Below are positions 10,331 to 29,006 of a stretch of 29,063 nucleotides of DNA, in pieces (within the stretch, counting starts at the first letter, position 1; each line of letters opens with the position of its first letter). A program made the position numbers and the translations under genes. Under the pieces are notes generated by a model. That model was not told the DNA's origin and did no database searches. It worked only from the letters and a program-made list of their open reading frames with translations. Origin of the DNA: a virus; the IMG/VR virus record IMGVR_UViG_3300050139_000187, positions 1 through 29,063 of that record. One strand, given 5' to 3'.

Positions 10331-10499
10331 GCGGTGTGGCCGCACCGACGGCTTGATAATCTGAGACAGGGCAGGGCTCGCCGTCACCGCGGCGGGCCCC
10401 CGCGCACGCTGCCAGCGGGATGGCAGGTTGTGCTCGGCCCCGGCTTGCTGAATCCTCCAAATGACCTACAATTTGCGGTGTGCGAAAGCCACGGAAAAG

Positions 10500-10513
10500 G
10501 CCGCGATCGCGGC
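10500..10513. promoter_or_regulatory. 14-bp perfect palindrome before the dprA-like gene
   Basis: GCCGCGATCGCGGC is a perfect palindrome about 40 bases before the start at 10555. It could be an operator or simply a GC-rich hairpin. The 224 bases from 10331 to 10554 hold no gene. Confidence 0.3.
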
Positions 10514-10554
10514 GCGAATCGCCTAAGATTGCGGCCCGCGACAAGGGTGCAGCA

Positions 10555-11307
10555 ATGAACGTCGCAAGCATCCGAAAACCACGTGAAGGCCAAGGCCGGA
10601 CGCACTACGCGCCCCCGCCAAACGTGCGCGTGCGCGAGTTGCGCGATCTAATCGCGTGGTCTGGCCGCGACGCCATGCATGACGCCCAACTGACGCTTCT
10701 CACTGGCCGCCGAGACGACCCCACGGTTGACCTGTTCCTCGCCGGCGACCCCGAGCTTTTGCGCGCCCCCAGCGTGTCGGTCGTCGGTACGCGCGAGGTG
10801 AGCGAGGAGGGCCGGAGGCGCGCGAGTCGCCTTGCACGCGAGCTCGCCGCGGAGGGAATCGTCGTTACCAGCGGTCTCGCGAAAGGCGTCGACACTGCGG
10901 CTCTGACTGCCGCGATCGAGGCGGGCGGCCGTGTGGTGGCGGTGATCGGTACACCGATCGACAAGGCGTATCCTGCCGAGAATGCCTCACTTCAAGAAAC
11001 GATCTATCGCGACCATCTGCTGGTCTCGCCGTTCCCGGAAGGCGAGCAGGTCTACCCCTCGAATTTCCCGAAGCGCAATCGCGTCATGGCCGCACTTTCC
11101 GACGCCTCGGTGATCGTCGAGGCTTCCGATACATCGGGCACGCTGCACCAGGCGGCAGAGTGCCAGCGGCTCGGTCGGTGGCTATTCATCATGCGCGCGG
11201 TGGTCGAGGACAAGAGCCTAAAATGGCCCTCGAAGTTCATCGGTAAGCCGAAGGTGGCGGTGCTGTCGACCACGGCGGACATTCTTCGTGTCATCCAACG
11301 GCCTTAA
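10555..11307 (+). CDS. DprA/Smf-like protein
   Basis: The 250-residue protein holds the Rossmann-like DprA core: VVGTREVSEEG at about 76-86, SGLAKGVDTAA at 106-116, then AYPAEN, FPKRNRVMAALS and VEASDTSGTLHQA near 188-200. Chromosomal DprA is longer, with a SAM domain before and a winged helix after; both are absent here. DprA binds single-stranded DNA and loads RecA in transformation. ATG 10555 is preferred because the frame upstream is Arg-rich filler. It overlaps the following phosphoribosyltransferase gene by 20 bases. That pairing suggests a dedicated accessory module rather than the housekeeping copy. Confidence 0.85.
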   Translation: MNVASIRKPREGQGRTHYAPPPNVRVRELRDLIAWSGRDAMHDAQLTLLTGRRDDPTVDLFLAGDPELLRAPSVSVVGTREVSEEGRRRASRLARELAAEGIVVTSGLAKGVDTAALTAAIEAGGRVVAVIGTPIDKAYPAENASLQETIYRDHLLVSPFPEGEQVYPSNFPKRNRVMAALSDASVIVEASDTSGTLHQAAECQRLGRWLFIMRAVVEDKSLKWPSKFIGKPKVAVLSTTADILRVIQRP

Positions 11308-11953
11308 GCTCGTAACACTTTGCTCGTACCTGACGGCGCACGACCCACCAACGTGGCGACAGTCCGACCATGACGCCTCCAAGATGGTGAAGGCGCTCAA
11401 GGGCGACACGATCAAAGGATATTTCAGCACGATCATCGGCGGAAAAACTGTTCGCTTCGACAATTCGAATGTGGGGGACTTCTTGAAACGGATACCGCCG
11501 GCTTTGGCGAAGATCATTGCGCTTGAGTTGGACGGACCCGCGACGCTGGTGCCTATTCCGAATTCGCACGTCACATCCACATCCGCAGCGGGCTTCCGCA
11601 CGCTCGAGTTGGCGAAGCAAACCGCGGCGGCAAGCGGGGGGCGGCTTACCGTCGCTCCCGCTCTCGTGTTCGAGGAGGCGCAGCAGAAATCGCGTAGAGG
11701 TGGCCCGCGTAACGCCGAGCATTTCGAGCAGGCATACCGTATCGCTCGGGACGTGCGAGGACCGATCGTGCTGATCGACGATGTTTGCACGTCCGGCGGA
11801 CACCTCATCGGTGCGTACAGAAAATTGCATGACCCATCGAAGCGAGAGGTTGTGCTTGCGTGCGCTTTCGGCCGGTCGAGGCGTGAGCAGGTCAAGGCGC
11901 CCGTCGCCGTCTACCGGGAGGTTCTTGACGTGGCCAGCCCTTTTGATTTTTGA
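11288..11953 (+). CDS. Phosphoribosyltransferase (ComF-like) paired with DprA
   Basis: The 221-residue product has the PRPP-binding loop VLIDDVCTSGGHL at about residues 161-173, with adjacent acidic residues followed by T-S-G-G. An upstream LVPIPNSHV strand is as in ComF-type phosphoribosyltransferases. The first 80 residues differ from ComF and lack the zinc-finger cysteines. The start is a GTG at 11288 inside the dprA-like gene, implying translational coupling. dprA-like and phosphoribosyltransferase genes recur together on mobile elements. From memory such pairs have been listed as candidate anti-phage systems; this should be verified. Confidence 0.8.
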   Translation: MSSNGLKLVTLCSYLTAHDPPTWRQSDHDASKMVKALKGDTIKGYFSTIIGGKTVRFDNSNVGDFLKRIPPALAKIIALELDGPATLVPIPNSHVTSTSAAGFRTLELAKQTAAASGGRLTVAPALVFEEAQQKSRRGGPRNAEHFEQAYRIARDVRGPIVLIDDVCTSGGHLIGAYRKLHDPSKREVVLACAFGRSRREQVKAPVAVYREVLDVASPFDF

Positions 11954-12598: not shown

Positions 12599-12613
12599 TG
12601 GCGGAAGGGGTGA
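12599..12613. repeat. Left attachment-site repeat (attL core)
   Basis: TGGCGGAAGGGGTGA is identical to the tRNA-Ser 3' end at 28917-28931 in the same orientation. The match breaks on both sides (C versus A before, C versus G after). It lies 156 bases upstream of the integrase start. Confidence 0.85.
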
Positions 12614-12731
12614 CGGTTTTCACCGTTTCCACCGCGTTCCGTATTATTCCAAAAACCCAAGACCTATCGACAGTTTTCTGTGTTTTCTCGTCTTGACCGT
12701 TCCGACCCATTCCGGCTAAATCCATGCGCGA

Positions 12732-12741
12732 TTTGTACGTT
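12732..12741. repeat. TTTGTACGTT motif near the left att
   Basis: The ten bases TTTGTACGTT recur at 28865-28874 near the right end, and in inverted, nearly identical form at 28826-28836. They are possible integrase arm-type or excisionase binding sites. See findings. Confidence 0.35.
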
Positions 12742-12769
12742 GAATCGTACGCAGCGAGTTGGGCGGAAG

Positions 12770-14047
12770 ATGCGGGAATCGAACCGGCTGACGGCACTCA
12801 AAATCGGCAAGCTGAAACGCCCCGGCCTCTATGCCGATGGCAATGGCCTTTGTCTGCAGGTGCAGCCGGGCCCGACCAAAGCCTGGATATTCCGCTACAT
12901 GCTCGCGCGCCGCCCGCGCAAGATGGGCATGGGGCCATTGGCGCTAGTCCCGCTAGCCGAGGCCCGCGAAAAGGCACTGGCCTACCGTAAGCTATTGCTG
13001 GCCGGAATAGATCCCATTGAAGCGCGGGCATCCGACCGCGCCAATGCAGCAGCCGAGGCCTTGCGCAGCATCACCTTTAGCCAATGCGCCGATAAATACA
13101 TCGCCACGCACCTGGCCGGATGGAAAAACCCTAAACACGCCGCACAATGGGAATCCACGATCGCCGACTATGCCAAGCCGATCATCGGCGCGCTGCCAGT
13201 ACGGGCTATCGATACGGCTGCGGTCATGAAGGTGCTGGAACAGGACGTCACCCGTAAGGCCAAGCCGCCGACGCCGCTCTGGCGCGCGCTGCCTGACACG
13301 GCCGGGCGCCTGCGCGGCCGGATCGAGCAAATTTTGGGCTGGGCGAGCGTGCGCGGCTACCGAACCGGCGACAATCCGGCGCGCTGGCGCGGCCATATCG
13401 ACCAGCTACTGCCCGGCCGCTCCAAGATTGCCAAAATTCGCCACCACGCGGCGCTGCCCTATCAAGAACTGCCGGCATTCATGACAACATTGCGCGCGCG
13501 CCCCGGCATCAGCGCACGGGCGCTCGAATTCACCATTCTGACCGCGACCAGAACGGGCGAAACGATTGGCGCGCGCCGCGAGGAATTTGATCCTGCCGAG
13601 CGCATGTGGAGTATTCCGGCCGCGCGAATGAAGGGGCGTGACGACGAGCGCGGGCCGCATCGAGTTCCGCTTTCCGAGCGCACCCTTGAAATTCTCGCCG
13701 AGCTGCCGTCTGAAGGCGAATTCGTCTTTCCCGGCCGGCGACCGCAGATGGCGCTATCCAATATGGCCATGCTCGAAACGCTCAAGCAGATGGGGCGCGG
13801 GGATCTGACCACGCATGGCTTCCGCTCGACTTTCCGCGACTGGTCGGCCGAAACCACGGCATATCCGCACGAGCTCTTAGAAATGGCTCTGGCGCACGCC
13901 GTTGGCGACAAAGTTGAAGCCGCTTACCGGCGCGGCGATCTGCTCGAAAAGCGGCGACGGCTGATGGGCGATTGGGCTGCCTACTGTGCTGCCTCGCCGA
14001 GTTCTGCCGACAATGTTGTACCGCTAAGGGGAGGCGACCATGGCTGA
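12770..14047 (+). CDS. int: P4-type tyrosine integrase
   Basis: The 425-residue protein has the N-terminal DUF4102-like domain (LTALKIGKLKRPGLYADGNG, LCLQVQP), a central SAM-like core-binding domain, and a complete catalytic domain. The catalytic set is R261 (TATRTGE), H349 and R352 (THGFRSTFRDW), H376 (LAHAVGDK) and the nucleophile Y386 (EAAYRRGD). Such integrases use the 3' ends of tRNA genes, which fits the tRNA-Ser repeat here. ATG 12770 gives the usual family length; the longer frame from 12680 adds 30 unlikely residues. It overlaps the next gene by 8 bases. It catalyses insertion and, with a directionality factor, excision. Confidence 0.93.
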   Translation: MRESNRLTALKIGKLKRPGLYADGNGLCLQVQPGPTKAWIFRYMLARRPRKMGMGPLALVPLAEAREKALAYRKLLLAGIDPIEARASDRANAAAEALRSITFSQCADKYIATHLAGWKNPKHAAQWESTIADYAKPIIGALPVRAIDTAAVMKVLEQDVTRKAKPPTPLWRALPDTAGRLRGRIEQILGWASVRGYRTGDNPARWRGHIDQLLPGRSKIAKIRHHAALPYQELPAFMTTLRARPGISARALEFTILTATRTGETIGARREEFDPAERMWSIPAARMKGRDDERGPHRVPLSERTLEILAELPSEGEFVFPGRRPQMALSNMAMLETLKQMGRGDLTTHGFRSTFRDWSAETTAYPHELLEMALAHAVGDKVEAAYRRGDLLEKRRRLMGDWAAYCAASPSSADNVVPLRGGDHG

Positions 14048-14658: not shown

Positions 14659-14708
14659 CCACACCATTCCCGCCGGACACGGCGGCGTCCTACAATAGGA
14701 TGGCAAAC

Positions 14709-14948
14709 ATGGTGCAGACTATTCTCCGGCGCGCAGACGGGCTTGATCGGTTTTTGCGACGCCCCGAAGTTGAGCACGTGACCGGACTCGGGCGCTCGAC
14801 AATTTACGCCAAGATGGATTCCGGCGAATTCCCAAAACCCGTTCCTTTGAGCGGGGGCGCCGTCGGTTGGCTCGAATCTGAAATCGCGGCTTGGCAGGAA
14901 AAGCGGATCGCCGCCCGTGGCCGCGCGAATGAACCGCAGGCGGCCTGA
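14709..14948 (+). CDS. AlpA-family regulator/excisionase
   Basis: This MerR-like winged HTH reads FLRRPEVEHVTGLGRSTIYA, then KMDSGEFPKPVPLSGGAVGW, then LESEIAAWQEKRIAARG. That is the textbook AlpA pattern, with its 'GLS/GRSTIYxxM' recognition helix and 'GWxxxEIxxWxxxR' end. AlpA proteins act as excisionases or activators for P4-type integrases. ATG 14709 has AGGA 8 bases upstream; ATG 14700 is an alternative adding three residues. Its location two genes after the integrase supports a role in excision control. Confidence 0.85.
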   Translation: MVQTILRRADGLDRFLRRPEVEHVTGLGRSTIYAKMDSGEFPKPVPLSGGAVGWLESEIAAWQEKRIAARGRANEPQAA

Positions 14949-15218: not shown

Positions 15219-16389
15219 AATCGGACCGGCGAACCTCACACAGAATTTCGGCGGATGGCCCGAGCGGATCGCCGCCAAGTGGCGCGCGAGCGTCGAATCC
15301 GTCATCGCTGCCGGCAATCTAATCATTGAAGCGAAGGTCGCACTCGCTCACGGCGAATTCGAGTCGATGATCGATGGTGCTCTGCCTTTCGGCGCCAGCA
15401 CCGCTCGCCGGCTTATGGCGATAGCGCAGGATCCCCGAATTTCAAATCGTGCACATGTGCACGTTTTGCCCGCTGCATGGGGAACGCTGTACGAACTAAC
15501 GAAACTTGACGACGACCAATTCAGCGCCAGGATCGCCGACGGCACCATTCGCCCCGATCTTGAGCGCGCCGAAGTGACGGCACTTCGCAAGGCGGCGGCG
15601 CGGGCGCCGTCGCAAGTGGCATATGCCGAGCGTGTGGCCATTGGCTGCACGCTAGCCGATCTCAATGCACTTGCCGATAGCGGCGCTCGCTTCGCTGCAA
15701 TCTTGGCGGACCCGAACTGGAAATATGAAACTTGGAGCGCAAAGGGAAAAGATCGGTCGCCCGATCGGCATTACGAGACGGACCCTCTTGCGGAAATCAA
15801 GGCGCTTCCGATCAAGCGCCTCGCCGCAGTCGATTCCGTACTGCACCTGTGGTGCATGGACTGGCTCTTACCGGCGGCTCTCGAGCTTATCGAGGAATGG
15901 GGCTTTCGGTTTATCAAGGTCGGATTCGTATGGGTGAAACAGAATCCGAGCGGCGACGGGCTCTTTATGGGGCTCGGAAAATGGACGCGAGCAGGGACCG
16001 AACTATGTCTGTTCGCGACGCGGGGAGACCCCTCTCGATTGAATGGGGACGTGCGCCAGGTCATTGAAGAGCCAATCCGCGAGCATTCGCGCAAGCCCAA
16101 CGATATTCACGCCAGAATCGAAAGACTGAGCGCGGGCCCGTACCTCGAATTGTATGCGCGCCGGCCGCGCGAGGGGTGGACGGTTTGGGGTGACGAAATC
16201 CCGCGCGCCTCTTTCACCTTCGTCGTCGACGATAACGATGTAGATCCGATCGAAGCACCGCGGACCGACGATGGTCTCAATATTCCGAATTTCCTTAGGC
16301 GTGGACACCCTGAATGCGTGATTGGCGTGCGCGGCCTGGGTATCGGGGGAGTTTCCCGTGAAACAGGCCGAACGGAACTGCGGCGATGA
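15175..16389 (+). CDS. DUF3102-MT-A70 adenine methyltransferase-like protein
   Basis: The 404-residue product has an N-terminal DUF3102-like domain (AAGNLIIEAKVALAHGEFES, ASTARRLMAIAQ) and a C-terminal MT-A70 domain. The latter includes ILADPNWKYETWSAKGKDRS, VDSVLHLWCMDWLL, FIKVGFVWVKQNPSGDG, LFMGLGKWTRAGTELCLFAT and PYLELYARRPREGW. MT-A70 enzymes make N6-methyladenine. The catalytic motif is DPNW at residues 179-182 rather than the usual DPPW, so activity is uncertain. ATG 15175 is chosen; ATG 15166 is an alternative. It probably modifies the element's or a helper's DNA. The next gene overlaps its stop (ATGA). Confidence 0.85.
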   Translation: MSYIERPCAERKHAKIGPANLTQNFGGWPERIAAKWRASVESVIAAGNLIIEAKVALAHGEFESMIDGALPFGASTARRLMAIAQDPRISNRAHVHVLPAAWGTLYELTKLDDDQFSARIADGTIRPDLERAEVTALRKAAARAPSQVAYAERVAIGCTLADLNALADSGARFAAILADPNWKYETWSAKGKDRSPDRHYETDPLAEIKALPIKRLAAVDSVLHLWCMDWLLPAALELIEEWGFRFIKVGFVWVKQNPSGDGLFMGLGKWTRAGTELCLFATRGDPSRLNGDVRQVIEEPIREHSRKPNDIHARIERLSAGPYLELYARRPREGWTVWGDEIPRASFTFVVDDNDVDPIEAPRTDDGLNIPNFLRRGHPECVIGVRGLGIGGVSRETGRTELRR

Positions 16390-16778
16390 TGCGAGTGCCG
16401 CACACACCTGAAGCGCGGGCGCTTATCAGTGAGCGATTAAAGGCTTATTGGGCCGACCCCGAAAAGCGAGCGAAGCAAAGTGAGCACACGCGGGACCGGA
16501 TGAACCGTCCGGAGGTGCGCCGGCGAATAGCCGATGGAACACGCGCCGCGTTGGCGGACCCTGCTACGCGACAAAGACAATTCGACGGGCTCACACGAGT
16601 CTGGGCTGATCCGGCCAAGCGAGAGCAACAAGCGACATTGACCCGCGAGCGCATGGCACAATGGCGCGCCGGTCGCCTTGAAGCGGCGGCTGTGGTTTTG
16701 CGGCAATTGCCTCGGGCAGAGCGCGCTGCGGCTATGGCAAAGCTCGCCAGCGCGGCCCACGGGGCATCAACGCGATGA
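16386..16778 (+). CDS. Repeat-rich basic DNA-binding-like protein (NUMOD3-like repeats)
   Basis: The 130-residue product contains repeated units around 'R/K...YWADPEKRAKQ', 'ALADPATRQRQ' and 'VWADPAKREQQ', each after a short helix (ISERLKAY, IADGTRA, FDGLTR). This resembles the small NUMOD3-type helices found as DNA-binding modules near homing nucleases, but there is no nuclease domain. It is strongly basic. It overlaps both neighbours through ATGA, lying between the methyltransferase and a micro-gene. It is likely a nucleic-acid-binding accessory of the replication cluster. Confidence 0.65.
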   Translation: MMRVPHTPEARALISERLKAYWADPEKRAKQSEHTRDRMNRPEVRRRIADGTRAALADPATRQRQFDGLTRVWADPAKREQQATLTRERMAQWRAGRLEAAAVVLRQLPRAERAAAMAKLASAAHGASTR

Positions 16779-16876
16779 GCAAGCCCGTGACGCGAAACCT
16801 ATCAGTCTATGACGGCAGGCGGTTGCTCGGCCGCATTGAAATCACGCCGCGATCGAAACGCGCGCCGTATGGCTAA
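16775..16876 (+). CDS. Micro-protein, 33 aa
   Basis: The ATG at 16775 overlaps the preceding stop as ATGA, and the stop at 16874 overlaps the next start (ATGGCTAA). The product includes LSVYDGRRLLGRIEITPRSK. The 'YDG-R-x-LG-x-I/F' core recurs in small phage and island proteins. The double overlap with neighbours argues for real translation. The function is unknown. Confidence 0.5.
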   Translation: MSKPVTRNLSVYDGRRLLGRIEITPRSKRAPYG

Positions 16877-17588
16877 AAGCGCACCCACAATCACGCCGAT
16901 ATACCGCGTTGCTTGGGCCGACATGGTGGCAAACGATTCGCGCGTTTCAGCGATCGCGGTGCGCATCGCGATTATCGTCGGTGCCCATTTCAATAACGTC
17001 ACTGCGGAAACCTACGTTGGTCAAACAACGGTTGCCGCCAAGGCTGGCGTCTCGGCGCGGACGGCATGGGAGGCTTTAAGGTGCCTTGTCGAGTGCGGAC
17101 ACTTAACCGTTCGACGCGGTGGCCGACGCTCGAACATCTACGGAATGCCACTCCAAAATATCGCAGCCTATTGCGAAACATACTTTAAGAAATCTCGCAG
17201 CCCATTGCGGAATATGCCGCTGGAAATCTCGCAATCTAGCGCACTAAATTTCGCAACTGGTTGCGAACAGACTCTACTTACTAACTCAATAGATTCAGAA
17301 ACCGCTGAAATGGCAACGCCACAAGGGCGAACCTGGCGCGCCGTCTTGACATCGCTCACCGATGAATATGGTAGGGAAAAAGCGGCGGCGTGGTTTTACA
17401 AACTCACCTTCGTCGGCGTTCATGACTGTGTCTGCATCCTGCGCGCGCCAAGCGGTTTCATCAAAAGTTGGATCGATACGAACTATGCAGAGCCAATCCT
17501 GCAAGCGTGGCGAGCGCAAGATAGCGGCATAGTCAGAATCGAGATCGAGACGCCACGCGCGAAGCGCGCGAGCGGAGGCGCCGCATGA
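16869..17588 (+). CDS. Replication initiator-like protein: winged HTH plus DnaA N-terminal-like domain
   Basis: The 239-residue product has an N-terminal winged-helix part (SRVSAIAVRIAIIVGAHFN, TTVAAKAGVSARTAWEALRC, then GHLTVRRGGRRSNIY as the wing). A linker of about 60 residues follows. The C-terminal domain resembles DnaA domain I/N: RTWRAVLTSLTDEYG, AAAWFYKLTFV, CILRAPSGFIKSWIDTNYAE and PILQAWRA. This is the plan of lambda O-like initiators, in which the N-terminus binds iterons and the C-terminus recruits helicase. Four iteron-like repeats lie in the linker-coding DNA. ATG 16869 is used; 16809 is an alternative. Confidence 0.75.
   Translation: MAKSAPTITPIYRVAWADMVANDSRVSAIAVRIAIIVGAHFNNVTAETYVGQTTVAAKAGVSARTAWEALRCLVECGHLTVRRGGRRSNIYGMPLQNIAAYCETYFKKSRSPLRNMPLEISQSSALNFATGCEQTLLTNSIDSETAEMATPQGRTWRAVLTSLTDEYGREKAAAWFYKLTFVGVHDCVCILRAPSGFIKSWIDTNYAEPILQAWRAQDSGIVRIEIETPRAKRASGGAA
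17157..17300. other. Candidate replication origin: four intragenic iterons plus AT-rich stretch
   Basis: The repeat unit is TCGCA-N6-TGCGA, usually preceded by AAAT or AAAA. Copies begin at 17161 (TCGCAGCCTATTGCGA), 17195 (TCGCAGCCCATTGCGG), 17229 (degenerate right arm) and 17251 (TCGCAACTGGTTGCGA). Spacing is 34, 34 and 22 bases. The copies fall in different codon phases, so the DNA rather than the protein is repeated. An AT-richer run, ACTCTACTTACTAACTCAAT, follows at 17271-17290. Confidence 0.65.
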
Positions 17589-17892: not shown

Positions 17893-18126
17893 ATGAGGCA
17901 AAAACGCAAATTAAAATACGTCGATTGTCTGATGCCGCTCGGCGCTGGCGACGACACGCTGCTGCCACTCGGCGGCGACTTAGGACTGCTGCCGCTCGGC
18001 GCTAGCGATGATCTGCTGCTGCCGCTCGGCGAGGGAGATGACCTGCTGCGGCCGATCGGCGAGATGAGCGACGAACTGCGGCCGATGCGTCCGCCCGGTA
18101 GGGGTGGGGGGTCGAAAACTTCATAG
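17893..18126 (+). CDS. Decapeptide-repeat protein (LGxxDDLLLP), 77 aa
   Basis: After a basic start (RQKRKLKYVDC), residues 16-64 consist of five near-identical units: LGAGDDTLLP, LGGDLGLLP, LGASDDLLLP, LGEGDDLLRP and IGEMSDELRP. The C-terminus RPPGRGGGSKTS is encoded by the G-rich repeat copy B. GGAG at 17881-17884 lies 8 bases before the ATG. The alternating Leu/Pro and Asp pairs could form a short solenoid or an acidic calcium-like array. The function is unknown; I recall related repeat proteins in bradyrhizobial phage islands. Confidence 0.6.
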   Translation: MRQKRKLKYVDCLMPLGAGDDTLLPLGGDLGLLPLGASDDLLLPLGEGDDLLRPIGEMSDELRPMRPPGRGGGSKTS

Positions 18127-28119: not shown

Positions 28120-28728
28120 ATGTACCGTATCGTCCTATTTGCTGCAGCAATCGCATTCGGCTCGGCGAGTGCGGCGTCGGCGCAATCGATATTGGAGGCC
28201 GTCGCCGGATTGAAATTCTGCCGAACGCTAAAGGACGACGGGCAACGACTAAAGTGTTTCGACGGCATCATTGTCGACGCGCCCGCGGCTAATCCTGCAG
28301 CCGGCAAGCTCGACGCCGAGATCACCTGGGCCGTGGACGAAAATAAATCGCCGCTTGACGACAGTCCGCAGGTCTCGGCGTCGCTTTCCAACGCAAAAGC
28401 CGACGCGGCGCTTGTGCTTCGCTGCAGGGAAAAAAAGACCGAGGCGATTTTCTCGAAAATGTTAGGTTTCCTAGGGAGCGCAAAACCTATTAAGGTTATG
28501 GTGCGCATCAATGACGGCAAGCTGATAGAGACGCAGTGGTCACCATCGACGACCGGCAGCGGTGCATTTGCGCCAAGTGCAGTTCAATTCATCAAGGCAT
28601 TGCCCGATCAGGGCAAGCTTTTCATTCGAGCGCTCGGCTTCAACGGGAATTCGCAGGACGGAGAGTTTTCGCTCGGAAAAGTTTCAGAGATCCGCGAGAA
28701 GATCGCGCAGGCCTGTAATTGGAAATGA
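28120..28728 (+). CDS. Orphan VasI/TagO-like exported protein
   Basis: The 202-residue product has a Sec signal (YRIVLFAAAIAFGSASAASA). The mature part has a conserved Cys region (LKFCRTLKDDGQRLKCFDGI) and a C-terminal domain with QVSASLSNAKADAALVLRCR, VMVRINDGKLIETQWSPSTT, SAVQFIKALPDQGKLFIRAL and ACNWK. This fits the VasI/TagO pattern of type VI secretion accessory proteins. There is no type VI cluster in the window. It is the last gene before attR, at the tRNA-proximal end. It is flanked by a 26-bp imperfect direct repeat. Confidence 0.65.
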   Translation: MYRIVLFAAAIAFGSASAASAQSILEAVAGLKFCRTLKDDGQRLKCFDGIIVDAPAANPAAGKLDAEITWAVDENKSPLDDSPQVSASLSNAKADAALVLRCREKKTEAIFSKMLGFLGSAKPIKVMVRINDGKLIETQWSPSTTGSGAFAPSAVQFIKALPDQGKLFIRALGFNGNSQDGEFSLGKVSEIREKIAQACNWK

Positions 28729-28916: not shown

Positions 28917-28931
28917 TGGCGGAAGGGGTGA
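28917..28931. repeat. Right attachment-site repeat (attR core, in tRNA-Ser)
   Basis: TGGCGGAAGGGGTGA on the plus strand is the CCA, discriminator and acceptor/T-stem 3' part of the tRNA. It matches 12599-12613. Confidence 0.85.
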
Positions 28932-29006
28932 GATTCGAACTCACGATACCCTTGCGGGTATGCCGGTTTTCAAGACCGGTGCCTTAAACCGCTCGGCCAC
29001 CCTTCC
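28917..29006 (-). tRNA. tRNA-Ser (anticodon UGA), with encoded CCA
   Basis: On the minus strand the 90-base gene starts GGAAGGGTGGCCGAGCGGTT and ends CCCTTCCGCCA. The 7-bp acceptor stem pairs fully (GGAAGGG with CCCTTCC). The anticodon arm is CCGGT-CTTGAAA-ACCGG with anticodon TGA (UCA codons). A long variable arm (ATACCCGCAAGGGTAT) marks it as serine. The T arm reads GTGAGTTCGAATCTCAC. The element's insertion left it intact. Confidence 0.95.

Follow-up and report, generated by a model that had tools for sequence, protein, structure and literature searches.

The replication origin of phage lambda consists of four 18-bp inverted repeats that adjoin a 39-bp high-AT region and lie inside gene O (PMC6022878). 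In Rhodobacterales, DnaA-like plasmid replicases of types I and II have been distinguished (Petersen et al. 2011, as named in PMC9025767 and PMC4148982), while gram-negative PICIs (phage satellites) carry an integrase at their end, AlpA, a replication initiator of their own and short flanking repeats, with the origin located 3′ of a primase-type pri-rep gene (PMC6092414). We analyzed an IMG/VR virus record of 29063 bases, hereafter the window, in which a DnaA-like initiator gene contains a repeat array of its own. Sequence comparison indicates that the region 16869–17588 is very probably a one-gene replicon, origin and initiator combined, of a 16.3-kb integrative element. According to our best reading, this replicon works like lambda ori/O but is most closely related to the DnaA-like plasmid replicases, which possess a matching array upstream of the gene.

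The record seems to combine two adjacent elements. A 15-bp sequence from the 3′ end of a tRNA-Ser occurs in identical form at 12599, beside an integrase gene, and at 28917, in the tRNA gene, which places the initiator gene in a 16.3-kb integrated element with the following features outside the initiator region:

12599..12613, plus strand: attL, TGGCGGAAGGGGTGA, the exact 15-bp repeat of the tRNA-Ser 3′ end
12680..14047, plus strand: tyrosine integrase, adjoining attL (Pfam PF13356, PF22022, PF00589)
14700..14948, plus strand: AlpA-type regulator/excisionase (PF05930, E = 4e-20)
15253..16389, plus strand: DNA methyltransferase (PHROG 359; PADLOC MTase_II)
28917..28931, plus strand: attR, within the 3′ end of tRNA-Ser(TGA) (28917–29006, minus strand)

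Like PICIs, the element has an integrase at its end, an AlpA regulator, its own initiator and short flanking repeats, but its putative origin lies inside a DnaA-like initiator gene and not 3′ of pri-rep. The terminase gene (terL, 5.8 kb) is located outside the element, and no terminase was found inside. In addition to these satellite-type features (att sites, integrase, AlpA, external terL), the element encodes an S78 protease-like and a tape-measure-like gene, which could mark a decayed prophage. Three identities are possible for the element: a satellite, a prophage in decay, or an integrative element of some other kind. A terC gene at 1.3 kb with 79% identity to Pseudolabrys-like MAGs points to a host within the Hyphomicrobiales. 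Just left of attL, DprA-like and phosphoribosyltransferase-like genes (10480–11953) were assigned by PADLOC to ShosA/ShosT, a pair that defends against phages (6e-67 and 1e-9), and a VasI-like protein (28120–28728; Pfam PF11319, 1.4e-7) is encoded adjoining the tRNA end of the element.

The initiator region was resolved into the following features:

16775..16876, plus strand: 33-aa ORF, the stop of which overlaps the initiator start
16869..17588, plus strand: initiator gene, 239 aa, encoding a winged helix, a linker and DnaA domain I; start assigned by alignment with plasmid relatives
16956..17138, plus strand: O-like winged helix-turn-helix, aa 30–90 (PHROG 391 'replication initiation O-like', E = 2e-4)
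17156..17176, plus strand: putative iteron 1, AAATATCGCA-N6-TGCGA
17190..17210, plus strand: putative iteron 2, AAATCTCGCA-N6-TGCGG
17224..17244, plus strand: putative iteron 3, AAATCTCGCA, right half not conserved
17246..17266, plus strand: putative iteron 4, AAATTTCGCA-N6-TGCGA, with 8-bp perfect arms TTCGCAAC/GTTGCGAA
17267..17310, plus strand: AT-rich run, candidate unwinding region, right of the iterons
17331..17513, plus strand: DnaA domain I, aa 155–215 (Pfam PF11638, E = 4e-12, above the curated cut-off; alignment to 2e0g)

An alternative in-frame start is possible at 16809, and the overlap with the 33-aa ORF might reflect translational coupling. Downstream of the initiator gene, a small ORF contains a short tandem repeat with units of 27–30 bp (17929–18061).

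The initial annotation had described the gene product as a winged-HTH plus DnaA_N-like protein, and profile searches bear this out for the C-terminal half; the N-terminal half is a winged helix with a weak O-like match. No match to Pfam Phage_rep_O was obtained for the protein. For the C-terminal module, the assignment to DnaA domain I was corroborated by chromosomal DnaA domain I sequences of Hyphomicrobiales, to which it is approximately 27–35% identical in the best matches. Residues W156, W175, F197 and W201 match W6, W25, F46 and W50 of E. coli DnaA, while K171 stands at the position of E21; F46 and E21 are the DnaB contacts of E. coli DnaA domain I (PMC5448010). A whole-protein AlphaFold model computed without alignment was poor (pLDDT 39). 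Domain I modelled alone, likewise without alignment, gave a low-confidence structure (pLDDT 63) with a helix-helix-strand-strand-helix-strand order, and its first Foldseek match was 4tps, a DnaA domain I–SirA complex, albeit a weak one (E = 0.029). The protein ends after domain I and lacks the AAA+ domain III and the DnaA-box-binding domain IV of chromosomal DnaA.

The linker-coding DNA contains four copies of AAATNTCGCA, starting at 17156, 17190, 17224 and 17246. A re-reading of the coordinates reproduced the spacing of 34, 34 and 22 bp that had been reported before. The repeats had originally been formulated as four TCGCA-N6-TGCGA units; this motif is exact at 17161 and 17251 and carries one mismatch at 17195, but at 17229 only the left half is present, the right half being mismatched at three of five positions. 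We therefore regard AAATNTCGCA, with nine of its ten bases present in all four copies, as the better common unit, copies 1, 2 and 4 as dyads and copy 3 as a half-site. The first dyad starts at codon 98, just after the winged helix. The copies fall into codon phases 1, 2, 0 and 1. The claim that they occupy different phases and encode unrelated peptides is thus accurate in that all three frames are used, but too strong for copies 1 and 4, which share a phase and encode the similar heptapeptides NIAAYCE and NFATGCE. No single frame accounts for the array. Elsewhere in the window, AAATNTCGCA was found as a single copy at 855 (minus strand), outside the element.

To score repetitiveness, we counted the copies of any 10-mer with one wildcard within the initiator gene. 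Four copies were reached in 0/3000 synonymous shuffles, 0/3000 codon resamplings, 0/3000 codon-order shuffles and 1/3000 dinucleotide shuffles, and seven other genes (five in the window and two plasmid replicases) scored 2–3. Lambda O, included as a positive control, scored 3 on the same measure, a value reached by 35 of 1000 shuffles. Two cruder, earlier statistics were too blunt to tell the repeats and shuffles apart. The repeats thus exceed chance expectation with protein and codon usage held fixed and occupy three codon phases, in agreement with the proposal that selection acts on the DNA. The AT-richer run said to follow them was recovered as well: 17267–17310 is 64% AT as compared to 43% for the element, and when the element was ranked by low duplex stability, a 150-bp window at 17151 reached the 99.7th percentile. 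DnaA boxes showed no excess in the window.

The arrangement resembles that of lambda. There, the winged helix is directly followed by the four annotated iterons, which start at O codon 117 and also lie in several phases (0, 2, 2, 1), so that the proposed correspondence in intragenic position holds. Both genes carry dyad iterons (with copy 3 of the window as a half-site) in the linker DNA after the winged helix, in mixed phases and followed by an AT-rich run. However, iteron sequence and spacing differ, and a profile comparison of the two proteins detected no homology (hhalign probability about 0.1–0.2%). The C-terminal domains are distinct, too: that of lambda O binds the P loader, whereas that of the window protein is DnaA domain I, and no P-like helicase loader was seen among the neighbouring ORFs scanned.

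A tblastn search against plasmids revealed relatives on plasmids of Sulfitobacter and other Rhodobacteraceae that were alignable over aa 39–227 at approximately 26% identity. Among these records is CP084961, which PMC9025767 (Table 1) classes as a DnaA-like-II replicon. These DnaA-like replicases of 230–240 aa consist, like the window protein, of a winged helix and DnaA domain I and can be aligned over most of its length, the winged helices being 33% identical over 61 aa. A family profile yielded matches in 106 of 293 Rhodobacterales genomes; DnaA_N was present in 24/24 aligned members and an O-like PHROG 391 match in 15/24. In a tree of the C-terminal domain (85 columns), the window protein grouped neither with the plasmid clade nor with host DnaA, a placement compatible with either one or two DnaA_N fusion events.

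All 31 loci with enough upstream DNA among L002–L004 and L237–L266 (some of them near-identical) exhibited an array of three AT-prefixed GGKGACA copies with spacings of 32–33 and 21–22 bp, starting 231–350 bp upstream of the gene; core and spacing had been defined on the first loci before the remaining ones were examined, so that this test was not fully blind. Such an array occurred in 0/620 shuffles, and within or downstream of the gene in 0/33 genes. It lies on the replicase side and is followed by an AT-rich run, and in L003 and L004, the two loci with sufficient flanking sequence, a ParA/ParB pair is divergent from the replicase. The relatives thus share with the window AT-prefixed direct repeats at spacings of about 32–34 and 21–22 bp. 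They differ in that their array is upstream, has a GGKGACA core and is accompanied by parAB, whereas that of the window is intragenic, has a TCGCA core and comes with no parAB among the element ORFs scanned. No GGKGACA-type array was detected on either strand of the window, and the conserved W..VGPDF..R linker shared by the plasmid relatives has no alignable counterpart in the window protein. Homologues lacking the repeats had been named initially as evidence against an origin. Taken literally, such homologues exist, as the plasmid relatives have no intragenic repeats, but all 31 carry an array upstream. Because every relative of the same architecture examined in this way has an iteron-like array with spacings of 32–33 and 21–22 bp, the proposed origin gains strong comparative support.

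Searches beyond the plasmid family were negative. Exact peptide patterns retrieved no close homologue from viral and genome collections, and tblastn of phage records gave no match at 1e-3 and three weak, chance-level matches at E up to 10. No DnaA_N protein occurred among relatives of the TerL phage (the protein was run against 50 records and the DnaA_N profile against 42), as is explained by the location of TerL outside the element. Only chromosomal DnaA was found in 297 Hyphomicrobiales genomes searched with the protein. The family profile, applied to 397 Hyphomicrobiales genomes at a strict threshold and with a first-look seeding that may miss diverged copies, gave one match, which overlapped a chromosomal DnaA region. 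The methyltransferase and tape-measure genes, used as anchors, did not lead to a related replication module. A scan of viral contigs for the iteron pattern returned 22 loci, none of them a homologue, including two phage genes with same-core repeats. One of these, an unrelated phage gene (L215:6477–6596), contains tandem 21-bp copies of ATCTCGCAGGAGGGTGCGACA with the same TCGCA-N6-TGCGA core and in-frame QEGATIS repeats; the other (L219) encodes a similar protein with scattered repeat copies. Neither matched a Pfam or PHROG initiator.

These data suggest a model in which, after excision, the winged helix would bind the intragenic repeats, two or more of them as dyads. The resulting nucleoprotein complex would open the AT-rich run on their right-hand side, and the clustered DnaA domain I modules could then recruit host DnaB directly, in which case a phage-type loader such as lambda P would not be needed. 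Recruitment of DnaB is favoured by conservation of the Phe46 equivalent, while the replacement of the other DnaB contact, Glu21, by Lys171 argues against it. Points against the origin itself are the absence of intragenic repeats and the different core in the plasmid family, the missing close homologue, and a GC skew without a switch at 17.2 kb, the latter being uninformative.

Operators represent the most serious alternative. The repeats might serve autoregulation by the winged-helix protein, or binding of another regulator, with replication starting elsewhere. This idea would agree with a winged-helix protein having dyad sites within the gene that encodes it, and iterons often act in both replication and autoregulation. 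However, four copies in the same orientation, spaced 34/34/22, followed by an AT-rich run and situated about 290–400 bp inside the gene suit an origin better. Moreover, the relatives hold their similarly spaced array 231–350 bp upstream, and no other copy of the motif occurs in the element, so that we consider a purely regulatory role unlikely.

Partition (centromere-like) or packaging sites appear more improbable still. The parAB genes adjoin the replicase in the plasmid relatives, whose upstream arrays could in principle be centromeres, but no parA or parB was present among those element ORFs that were scanned (a part of the total), the element has no terminase, and the relatives' array is on the replicase side with the AT-rich run after it. 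Finally, the least probable explanation, and one largely refuted, is that the repeats arose incidentally from a recent tandem duplication or a repeated peptide. Copies 1 and 2 are 71% identical across a 34-bp alignment, and similar heptapeptides are encoded by copies 1 and 4, but identity between copies 1 and 2 is confined to the core (19/22 in the first 22 bases versus 5/12 in the 12 bases between them), the last pair is spaced 22 bp, three codon phases are used, and the relatives contain no repeated peptide.

Returning to the intragenic origin, we give about even chances to a broader interpretation, namely that an integrative element arrived at the lambda O solution with DnaA domain I as the effector. 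It would then own a self-contained replicon of approximately 0.7 kb in which host DnaB is loaded with no phage loader involved, and the origin would have moved between an upstream position (plasmids) and an intragenic one (element) within one initiator architecture. More than one type of initiator gene could then harbour an origin within its coding DNA. The locus would also provide a natural setting for asking whether DnaA domain I suffices by itself for loading the replicative helicase when a foreign winged helix brings it to DNA. For the DnaA-like plasmids, the family-wide GGKGACA array upstream of the replicase provides a concrete candidate origin. A 32nd relative on an IMG/VR contig (L267) showed an agreeing upstream array; judged from translations only, a ParA-like ATPase and P2-like tail genes are encoded nearby, and this contig is possibly a phage-plasmid.
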